From assembly GCF_009858335.1 (NCBI RefSeq), contig NZ_VMSE01000001.1, forward strand, positions 496,001 through 560,000: a stretch of DNA of 64,000 bases, in the 5' to 3' direction. Source of the DNA: Methylovorus glucosotrophus (GTDB lineage Bacteria > Pseudomonadota > Gammaproteobacteria > Burkholderiales > Methylophilaceae). Shown here one piece after another: positions 2,916-4,992 of this stretch. The notes under the pieces are model-generated. The model saw only the letters and a list, made by a program, of their open reading frames with translations. It was not told the origin of the DNA and did no database searches. Made by a program: the position numbers and the translations under genes. Each line of letters begins with the position of its first letter. The stretch's first letter is position 1.

Positions 2916-2931
2916 TACTCCTGAGGGAGTA
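2916..2931. promoter_or_regulatory. NarL-like 7-2-7 inverted repeat in front of the permease operon
   Basis: TACTCCTGAGGGAGTA. The left heptamer TACTCCT fits the NarL consensus TACYYMT fully. The right heptamer, read on the other strand, is TACTCCC (6 of 7). The two are separated by 2 bases, the NarL 7-2-7 spacing. It lies 65 bases upstream of the permease ATG (minus strand). Confidence 0.6.
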
Positions 2932-3021
2932 GGCCGCCGCCAGTTGAGACGCATGCTGCGCAGATGCCCCAAGTTGGACCGGAACCTGCTTCAGATCCCG
3001 CGTACCGCACCATTTTCTTGC

Positions 3022-3058
3022 TACTTCTTAGGTAGTAATCCGTAGTGAGAATTGTGAG
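3022..3058 (+). promoter_or_regulatory. NarL-like inverted repeat plus conserved block upstream of the APC transporter
   Basis: TACTTCTTAGGTAGTA (3022-3037). The left heptamer matches TACYYMT fully and the right one 5 of 7. Nine bases later comes GAGAATTGTGAG (3047-3058). The same arrangement with identical 9-base spacing occurs before tmd (4956-4992). Over the 38-base stretch including one flanking base the two copies agree at about 30 positions. This indicates a shared promoter/operator unit. Confidence 0.65.
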
Positions 3059-3164
3059 GCGGGGGCGGCGGGTATTCAATGGTGCCCAATGCAGGACATG
3101 CCAGCATCGTGCGTGCTGCCCGTGGGCCTGCTGACTGCATGACTTTTCGATAAGGGGAATTAAA

Positions 3165-4862
3165 TTGAACAGTAATCCGCCCGTAGACGCGATAGGCGCC
3201 GATTTATCCGGCGATGTCGTCGCCCAGAACTCTACCCTGCACCGCAAGATCGGCTGGCAGGGTGCGTTCTGGGTTGCCAGCGGTGTACCCGCACTGGTGC
3301 TTTTTTCCATAGGCGCCATTGCCGCCACCGTTGGCAAACCTTCCTGGATGGTATGGATGATCTCCATTGCCTTCGGTTTTATCCAGGCCTTTACCTATGC
3401 CGAAATTGCCGGCCTGTTTCCACACAAATCCGGCGGCGCTTCCGTTTATGGCGCCGTGGCCTGGGTGCGTTACAGCAAATTCATCGCCCCCGTGTCAGTC
3501 TGGTGTAACTGGTTTGCCTGGTCACCCGTGCTGGCGATTGGCTCCGGCCTCGCGGCGGGCTATATCCTGAGTGCGCTGTTTGCGCCGGATGCGGTGATCA
3601 ATACCTGGCAGATTACGCTGCTTGATCTGAGCTTCATCAAGACAGACCTCGCCTTGCGCATCAACGCCACCTTCATCCTCGGCGCTGCCGTGCTGATGTC
3701 GGTATTTGCCGTGCAGCATGGCGGCATTCTGCGTTCCGCCCGCGTCACCATGATCCTGGGCATTACCGCGCTGATCCCCCTGATGCTGATTGGCCTCATC
3801 CCTATCCTCACTGGCGATGTACCTCAGGTGAATTTCTTCCCCATGGCACCACTGAGCTATGACGCTGCAGGTAATGTGGTCGATGGCGTGTGGGGCATCG
3901 AGGGCTGGAAACTGATGGCCGGTGGTCTCTTTATTGCCGCCTGGTCCACCTATGGTTTCGAAACCTCTGTCTGCTATACCCGGGAGTTCAAGAACCCCAA
4001 GACCGATACCTTCAAGGCTATTTTCTACTCCGGCTTGCTGTGTATTGCCGTGTTTACCCTGGTACCGATTGCCTTCCAGGCGCACCTGGGCCTGGGTCAA
4101 CTGGTGACGCCTGCCGTGGTTGACGCTGCAGGCACTACCGTCACCCCTGCGGTTTACAGCGGCATGCTGGCCCCAGAAATCTACAGCGGCATGGGCGTTG
4201 CCAGTGCCTTGTCCGACATGGCTGGCGGCGGCAAGATCATCGGTAATGTCATGGTCATCATGCTGGTGCTGGCACTGCTGCTTTCCATCATGACCTCCAT
4301 GGCCGGTTCTTCCCGCACGCTGTATCAGGCATCGGTGGATGGCTGGTTGCCCAAGTACCTGTCCAAGGTGAATGAGCACGGCGCGCCTACCCCTGCCATG
4401 TGGACCGACCTCTGCTTCAACCTGCTGCTGCTCCTGCTGTCCGACTATGTGTTCGTGCTGGCCGCATCGAATGTCGGCTACATCATCTTCAACTTCCTCA
4501 ACCTTAACTCTGGCTGGATACATCGCCTGGACCGCCCCAACTGGATGCGCCCTTACAAGGCGCCGACCATTCTGCTGGCAGCCGGTGGCGTGCTGAGCTT
4601 CGTCAACCTGGCACTGATGGGCTTTGGTGCCGATATCTGGGGCGAAGGTACCCTGATGACAGGCCTGATCTTCGGCGCGCTGATCATCCCGGTCTTCATC
4701 TACCGTCACTATGTGCAAGACAAAGGCCAGTTCCCCAAGGCCATGCTTGAAGACATGCATATTGCCGATGAAGCCGGTGTCTCCAGCCGTGCCGGTATCC
4801 TGCCCTACGTCGCGCTGGTGGCGGGTGTGGTGGTGGTCTATGTGTTCCATCATCTCGGTTAG
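3165..4862 (+). CDS. APC-superfamily amino acid/amine permease
   Basis: 565-residue integral membrane protein with about 12-14 hydrophobic helices, of the amino acid-polyamine-organocation type. It has an N-terminal glycine-rich first helix region (FWVASGVPALVLFSIGAIAA), an early FIQAFTYAEIAGLFP segment and a late SMAGSSRTLYQASVDG segment typical of the family. Start is TTG 3165 with AAGGGG upstream. A strong terminator follows (4887-4915), so it forms a single-gene unit. It shares a duplicated promoter element with tmd. Uptake of trimethylamine or another methylated amine is therefore a plausible role, but this is inferred from context and not from substrate-specific residues. Confidence 0.85.
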   Translation: MNSNPPVDAIGADLSGDVVAQNSTLHRKIGWQGAFWVASGVPALVLFSIGAIAATVGKPSWMVWMISIAFGFIQAFTYAEIAGLFPHKSGGASVYGAVAWVRYSKFIAPVSVWCNWFAWSPVLAIGSGLAAGYILSALFAPDAVINTWQITLLDLSFIKTDLALRINATFILGAAVLMSVFAVQHGGILRSARVTMILGITALIPLMLIGLIPILTGDVPQVNFFPMAPLSYDAAGNVVDGVWGIEGWKLMAGGLFIAAWSTYGFETSVCYTREFKNPKTDTFKAIFYSGLLCIAVFTLVPIAFQAHLGLGQLVTPAVVDAAGTTVTPAVYSGMLAPEIYSGMGVASALSDMAGGGKIIGNVMVIMLVLALLLSIMTSMAGSSRTLYQASVDGWLPKYLSKVNEHGAPTPAMWTDLCFNLLLLLLSDYVFVLAASNVGYIIFNFLNLNSGWIHRLDRPNWMRPYKAPTILLAAGGVLSFVNLALMGFGADIWGEGTLMTGLIFGALIIPVFIYRHYVQDKGQFPKAMLEDMHIADEAGVSSRAGILPYVALVAGVVVVYVFHHLG

Positions 4863-4886
4863 TATTCCGCGCTAGCCGGGCATGAG

Positions 4887-4915
4887 ACGGGTCGCCGCAA
4901 GGCGGCCCGTTTTTT
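4887..4915 (+). terminator. Rho-independent terminator after the APC transporter
   Basis: Ten-base-pair stem ACGGGTCGCC / GGCGGCCCGT closed by a GCAA tetraloop and followed by a T run. It separates the transporter from tmd. Confidence 0.9.
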
Positions 4916-4955
4916 ATTTAAACAGTTGATTATTAATGAAAGTTTATGCGGGTGA

Positions 4956-4992
4956 TACTCCCTAGGTGGTAAGCCCTAAGGAGAATTGTGAG
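4956..4992 (+). promoter_or_regulatory. NarL-like inverted repeat plus conserved block upstream of tmd
   Basis: TACTCCCTAGGTGGTA (4956-4971; heptamers 6/7 and 5/7 to TACYYMT, spacing 2), then 9 bases, then GAGAATTGTGAG (4981-4992). It is the second copy of the element at 3022-3058. It lies about 70 bases upstream of the tmd start, where an activator site would be expected. Confidence 0.65.

Follow-up and report, generated by a model that had tools for sequence, protein, structure and literature searches.

The stretch of DNA analysed here (the window: 64,000 nucleotides of Methylovorus glucosotrophus, positions 496,001 to 560,000 of contig NZ_VMSE01000001.1) raises the question of what a two-component system of the NarX/NarL type is doing beside tmd, the gene for trimethylamine dehydrogenase (TMADH), and which genes it controls. 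Trimethylamine dehydrogenase is a textbook enzyme; among the open-licence PMC papers listed in literature searches, no title or abstract opening describes a regulator of the tmd gene. The genes on which the argument turns are the following.

1 to 595, plus strand: C-terminal part of a NarX/NarQ-like sensor kinase (HisKA_3 and HATPase domains); its open reading frame starts outside the window, at G000:C1:494769 (G000 being the window's genome)
611 to 1309, plus strand: NarL-type response regulator (NCBIfam NarL), proposed activator of methylated-amine genes
1774 to 2850, minus strand: EamA/DMT-type transporter, weak candidate target of the site at 2916
3165 to 4862, plus strand: APC-family permease (NCBIfam trimethylamine N-oxide permease, 854.8 bits, cut-off 690)
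5061 to 7253, plus strand: tmd, trimethylamine dehydrogenase (PDB 1djn, 1543 bits)
7363 to 12647, plus strand: genes 3' of tmd for an Fe-S/CCG protein, an LRV-repeat protein, etfB and etfA
L102:17321-18721 (G000:C1:493321-494721), minus strand: triple-PAS protein, encoded divergently to the kinase

Upstream (5') of the genes in the window lie dmmDABC, a gene for a TorF-type porin and the triple-PAS gene. The latter adjoins the kinase gene in 20 islands and in Hyphomicrobium. Wherever an island shows all three genes, which is so in 20, their order is PAS-kinase-regulator; the stretch from G081 starts at the kinase. No output domain was found in the triple-PAS protein, which may be a third component of the system. 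Across the tmd islands, the LRV/HEAT-type repeat protein (9443-10888) has kept its place between Fe-S protein and etfB, and the window also holds an operon of the N-methylglutamate pathway at about 39700-47000 (outer limits estimated), with mgdC at 41217-44099.

From computed site conservation, promoter-like geometry, co-occurrence, phylogeny and a predicted sensor fold, we consider it very probable that a system derived from NarX/NarL is the direct activator of methylated-amine catabolism in Methylophilaceae and has relatives in Burkholderiales and Hyphomicrobium. The sites through which it would act are three palindromes, two of which precede the permease and tmd.

2916-2931, no strand assigned: palindrome TACTCCTGAGGGAGTA of the 7-2-7 type, shared letter for letter by three Methylovorus genomes, matrix score 9.5
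3022-3037, plus strand: 7-2-7 operator TACTTCTTAGGTAGTA before the APC/TMAO permease, matrix score 19.3
4956-4971, plus strand: 7-2-7 operator TACTCCCTAGGTGGTA before tmd, matrix score 22.9 (training site)

A sequence-only reading had placed the three palindromes at these positions, and re-reading the window bore it out, as it did the heptamer counts against TACYYMT (7+6, 7+5 and 6+5) and the equal gap of 9 bases from the operators at 3022 and 4956 to the two copies of GAGAATTGTGAG (3047-3058 and 4981-4992). The operators are built of inverted heptamers with a 2-bp spacer; held against strict TACYYMT heptamers, the one at 3022 has two mismatches and the one at 4956 three. The strict NarL consensus was dropped as the operator definition because it is enriched neither in the window (28 matches with at most three mismatches against 19.8 +/- 4.3 expected) nor in the genome (110 with at most two mismatches against 264 for a reversed control pattern). 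The attribution to an E. coli NarL-type consensus had to be corrected: the motif is a NarL-like variant with TACYNCY as the preferred heptamer. A refined motif drawn up after the island sites had been seen, TACYNCY-NN-RGNRGTA (TACYNCYNNRGNRGTA), has four exact matches in the genome (2.9 Mb, three contigs) against 16 for its reversed control, and all four lie in one island, at 2916, 3022, 4956 and G000:C1:488520, the last upstream of dmmD and 7.5 kb before the window. Since the genome count is below the reversed control and every match is in the island, the excess lies in place, not in number. Across eight genomes there are 36 exact matches against 69 for the reversed control; 29 of the 36 are inside islands, those outside being found in G018 (1), G030 (5) and G027 (1), and one counted match in G054 falls within the mgdC coding sequence. 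As the refined pattern was derived from island sites, the independent evidence consists of conservation upstream of tmd and the transfer of a matrix built on tmd sites only. Covariation was dropped as proof of a palindrome because among the symmetric pairs only 7/10 is clearly above what shuffling gives on average (32 of 52, where 2000 shuffles give 22.2 +/- 3.5 and at most 35). Some island sites, TACCCCTTAGGGAGTA among them, are close to the site in the NarL crystal structure, TACCCCTAAAGGGGTA (PMC4549865).

The family sample comprised 100 genomes, of which 16 bear TMADH at 88-100% identity and include close groups (G000, G017 and G035; G027, G089 and G095). Before tmd, the palindrome followed by C.T and AATTGT (ATTGT in G007) is kept in 15 of these 16 aligned upstream regions; in G031 there is no operator directly before tmd, and the site sits before permease genes that precede it. 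Loss of the motif upstream of tmd in relatives that keep the regulator, which the sequence-only reading had named as a finding that would refute it, is confined to G031, 13 of the 14 genomes with both regulator and tmd keeping the motif there. The matrix, made from ten hand-dereplicated tmd sites (eight distinct strings, both strands; cut-off 11), finds 93 matches of at least 11 in 23 islands (905 kb); 164 kb of control sequence gives three, the dmmD site itself among them. At a score of at least 14, 18 dereplicated islands hold 62 matches in 127 kb of intergenic sequence against five in 591 kb of coding sequence (training sites included), with local shuffles giving a mean of 1.4 and a maximum of 4 in the same scan.

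When matches of at least 12 within 300 bp upstream are tallied gene by gene, a site precedes tmd in 17 of 19 cases (training set; paralogues counted), dmmD in 14 of 16, the APC/TMAO permease in 21 of 28, the globin gene in 6 of 10, in-island mgdA in 5 of 9, folE2 in 5 of 10 and fae in 1 of 4. For dmmA the count is 3 of 19, and in all three cases no other gene comes between the site and dmmA. By the same measure no site was found before dmmB (0/20), dmmC (0/19), the porin gene (0/12) or gmaS, mgsA-C, mgdC, mgdD and the rest of the tallied genes (all 0), and 3' of tmd an operator of its own was seen for the Fe-S protein in 1 of 16 cases, the LRV-repeat protein in 0 of 17, etfB in 0 of 15 and etfA in 0 of 16. 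Autoregulation was dropped, as no site precedes the kinase (0/20) or PAS (0/21 ORFs) genes and the only one tallied for the regulator gene (1/21) lies inside the kinase gene of G052. The regulon would be wider than the targets that the sequence-only reading had named, with dmmDABC as its most constant partner. A bacterial-like globin gene with an operator of its own is divergent from the permease in the islands of G075, G081, G006, G027, G089 and G095. Four genomes (G011, G031, G054 and G045) hold a second TMADH-like gene at 65-67% identity, which we take to be possibly a dimethylamine dehydrogenase gene.

The palindrome at 2916 stands apart. It scores 9.5 with the tmd-only matrix, below the cut-off of 11, and lacks the common promoter geometry, so that of the three sites taken for operators, those at 3022 and 4956 stand as conserved operators and that at 2916 is weak and found in Methylovorus only. 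The control of the EamA transporter that had been proposed to run through it is weakened further by the tally for EamA genes, only 2 of 13 of which have a site of at least 12 within 300 bp, both shared with a divergent APC gene. A minus-strand TGGAAA-18-TACCAT pair near 2916 could be a putative EamA promoter.

Downstream of the two conserved operators, the following elements are predicted.

3036-3051, plus strand: degenerate second 7-2-7-like box, offset downstream by 14 bp from the operator at 3022
3052-3080, plus strand: predicted promoter of the permease (-35 TTGTGA 3052-3057, 17 bp, -10 TTCAAT 3075-3080)
4970-4985, plus strand: degenerate second 7-2-7-like box, offset downstream by 14 bp from the operator at 4956
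4986-5014, plus strand: predicted promoter of tmd (-35 TTGTGA 4986-4991, 17 bp, -10 GAAAAT 5009-5014)

The layout typical of 61 oriented sites, among which some divergent sites were entered in both directions, is operator, 14 bp, a TTGtnn/TTTTnn hexamer, 17 bp and a -10-like hexamer. This last hexamer, at offset 37, matches TATAAT at 3.07 positions on average, the average over all offsets being 1.75 (sd 0.44); the best value at any offset, 3.52, belongs to GAGAAT, at offset 9 after the operator. The -35/-10 reading is preferred because two hexamers at 17-bp spacing recur in the promoters of tmd and dmmD and in some of those of the permease; GAGAAT as the -10 was set aside as the alternative, since the operator would then cover the -35 and the conserved hexamer 37 bp downstream would be left unexplained. 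In the preferred -35/-10 reading the operator would be centred at -57.5. The second box shows up in the matrix scores, which peak at +14 with a mean of -6.7, while the offsets beyond it average -32.3 (sd 2.1); it would be centred at -43.5, and GAGAATTGTGAG most likely represents the -35 region plus this degenerate box. At mgdA in one genus (five genomes), a single site abuts a TTGACM hexamer.

This geometry bears on whether the regulator activates or represses from these sites. E. coli NarL activates from -44.5, -67.5 and -77.5 (PMC7419079), which makes placement at -57.5 and -43.5 plausible and argues for activation, as do the position of the main operator upstream of the -35 in the preferred reading and the weak -35 hexamers (TTTTGG at dmmD, and TTTTCC), a pattern of activator-dependent promoters. 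On the other side, NarL acts as a repressor at certain promoters, frdA being one (PMC4549865), the second box touches the -35, and were GAGAAT the -10, the operator would lie over the -35 and the argument from its position would fall. We infer activation, and consider repression from these sites improbable.

Regulator orthologues (72-100% identity) are found in 21 of the 100 genomes; dmmA is likewise found in 21, 20 of them in common (p 8e-19; exceptions G031 and G007), and regulator and tmd occur together in 14 genomes, the regulator alone in seven, tmd alone in two and neither in 77 (p 3e-10), p values that overstate independence because the genomes are related. The N-methylglutamate pathway offers a further comparison: mgdC is present in all 21 regulator genomes and in 16 others, and a site precedes mgdA in 10 of the 21 against none of the 16 (p 0.0017), or none of 14 when G007 and G045 are left out (p 0.002), the mgdA upstream region of G045 being only partly covered. 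In G006 this operon, with its site, lies about 0.8 Mb from the regulator. It has no site in the other 11 regulator genomes, the window's own included, where the 450 bp ahead of mgdA contain no operator, the best score there being -6.4, so the N-methylglutamate step seems to lie outside the motif regulon in Methylovorus.

Binding of the palindrome by this regulator is itself deduced from such patterns, which leaves a small chance that the palindrome is real and bound by another transcription factor to which the NarL-type regulator is merely a neighbour. Two genomes, G007 and G045, keep the operator, and no close regulator was found in their assemblies, whose completeness is 90% and 78%; in G007 the contig breaks off within dmm, short of the place where the regulator would follow. 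Other candidate factors exist, namely an XRE-cupin regulator, present in eight islands, and in G000 a regulator of the OmpR type at about 483 kb. However, the gene clusters found in all 21 regulator islands are the permease, the kinase and the regulator, the last being their sole DNA-binder (genes annotated in part); the XRE-cupin regulator was not found in the fetched Methylovorus stretches, the motif has the 7-2-7 shape of NarL sites, and the mgdA sites track the presence of the regulator. No AraC-type HTH family was found among the annotated island clusters. The proposal that the pair controls tmd and the APC/TMAO permease, as a candidate methylated-amine regulator, is well supported by comparative evidence, and this control would be by direct binding; as far as sequence comparison reaches, the operator is real and conserved, the regulator is a strong candidate for it, and the sequence-only reading was largely right, with the corrections given above.

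The regulator, with a receiver and a GerE/LuxR output domain, scores 275.7 bits to the NCBIfam NarL equivalog (cut-off 250), and alignment confirms that its recognition helix (TVKVHIKHLL) is, as had been claimed, almost identical to that of NarL (TVKVHVKHML); TVKVHxK is present in all 21 aligned regulators, the next H being replaced by N in G011, G018 and G031. The sensor part of the kinase has a predicted fold most like NarQ. Both the equivalog score and the predicted fold would suit an ordinary NarX/NarL nitrate system that stands beside tmd by chance, any link to amine genes then being respiratory, nitrate-dependent control, an explanation to which we give very little credence. No PilJ match was found in four kinase sensor domains, an absence that is no proof of another ligand, and no conserved arginine in 15 kinase sequences at the place expected from NarQ R50, a mapping that rests on predicted fold ranges. 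The nitrate-binding arginine is presumably a P-box feature of NarX/NarQ sensors.

Also against the nitrate explanation is the distribution of narG. The search covered 27 of the 100 genomes, namely all 21 that have the regulator and six chosen in addition, five of these for a second NarL. The gene is above the cut-off in eight, and split in two and below the cut-off in a ninth, G072; these nine are exactly the genomes with a second NarL (41-45% identity), which lies on narG's contig in eight of them. Only four of the 21 regulator genomes have narG, so the regulator does not co-occur with it as a nitrate NarL would, and nothing near the cut-off was found in G000. In a 47-protein tree (midpoint root, several long branches), a branch with support 100/98 splits the methylated-amine side, Burkholderiales relatives included, from gammaproteobacterial NarLs and the five narG-linked NarLs included. 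On these comparisons, the window regulator is a sibling of NarL and not the nitrate NarL.

The regulators of Hyphomicrobium zavarzinii (L260) and Pseudogemmobacter humi (L261) branch inside the Methylophilaceae clade (100/99), and the presence there of two alphaproteobacterial proteins makes horizontal transfer likely. Among the best 80 loci, each with a stretch of up to 9 kb on either side, so that the spread outside Methylophilaceae is a lower bound, methylated-amine genes accompany 47 of 62 regulators at 53-99% identity against none of 18 at 44-50%; broken down, they are nearby in 24 of 29 for L231-L259 (Methylophilaceae and others, 72-99% identity), 23 of 33 for L260-L292 and 0 of 18 for L293-L310. 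In H. zavarzinii the regulator has 75% identity, and, with G054 or G000 queries, the kinase has 50%, the PAS protein 55%, the tmd-like gene 63% and the permease 80%; the gap between tmd and the permease carries TACTACCATGGTAGTA. Matrix matches of at least 12 occur in nine of the 33 loci L260-L292 and looser pattern matches in ten, and the Burkholderiales-type L285 and L286 have the palindrome plus AATTGT at the same spacing as the Methylophilaceae sites. A regulon outside Methylophilaceae is so far only indicated by such matches.

We therefore propose the following course of events, in conditional terms. The pair at 1-1309 would be a NarX/NarL-derived two-component system dedicated to methylated amines, whose membrane kinase, probably together with the triple-PAS protein, would respond to a methylated amine, or to something made from it, by phosphorylating the regulator. 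A regulator dimer would then bind the 7-2-7 palindromes near -57.5, and also the degenerate second box near -43.5 beside the weak -35, recruiting sigma-70 polymerase so that tmd, the APC/TMAO permease and dmmDABC start; depending on the genus, folE2-ribBA, the globin gene and the N-methylglutamate operon would also be started, in one genus from the single site abutting the -35 of mgdA. In its full extent, with the ligand of the NarQ-like kinase (by its predicted fold) switched so that it senses a methylated amine or product together with its triple-PAS partner, and with its NarL-type regulator as a master activator of tri-, di- and methylamine catabolism across Betaproteobacteria that was passed to Hyphomicrobium, the proposal is tentative and falls somewhat short of probable.

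Among the mainly open-licence papers listed in literature searches, no title or abstract opening names a NarL-type regulator of tmd or dmm, nor is one mentioned in the accessible parts of PMC4543880, PMC6794327 and PMC8399692. A regulator of another family is on record: according to PMC13390433, TmaR, of the AraC family, was reported in roseobacters in 2026 and is in Ruegeria pomeroyi the master regulator of dmm, gmaS-mgs, mgd and the first trimethylamine steps, with homologues mainly in alpha- and gammaproteobacteria and a subset in betaproteobacteria. The present system would be like TmaR in being a master regulator of an overlapping gene set; the two differ in that the protein families are unrelated and that Roseobacter has tmm/tdm rather than TMADH (PMC13390433). 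If our reading is true, another methylotroph group met the problem that roseobacters solve with TmaR by means of a retooled nitrate switch, and one would expect an entire regulon, promoters laid out as described and a kinase that takes an amine, not nitrate, as its ligand. DmfR of Paracoccus aminophilus pAMI2 is comparable as a LuxR-family activator of a C1-amide degradation operon, its substrate, in contrast, being dimethylformamide (PMC4543880). At E. coli ogt and yeaR, NarL alone likewise activates from 7-2-7 sites, one of which adjoins the -35 or lies shortly upstream of it (PMC7419079). The spacing differs: 33 bp separate the two centres at ogt, 14 bp the boxes here, which overlap by 2 bp. 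With E. coli NarX/NarL and NarQ, the system shares the regulator fold, the recognition helix and 7-2-7 palindromes that lie upstream of the -35 or adjoin it; its sensor may be NarQ-like too, to judge by the predicted fold. It differs from them in its linkage to dmm, tmd and N-methylglutamate genes, mostly without narG, in a motif with C favoured at position 6 and either C or T at position 7, and in a kinase in which, by the fold-based mapping, no conserved nitrate-binding arginine is seen and which has a divergent triple-PAS partner.
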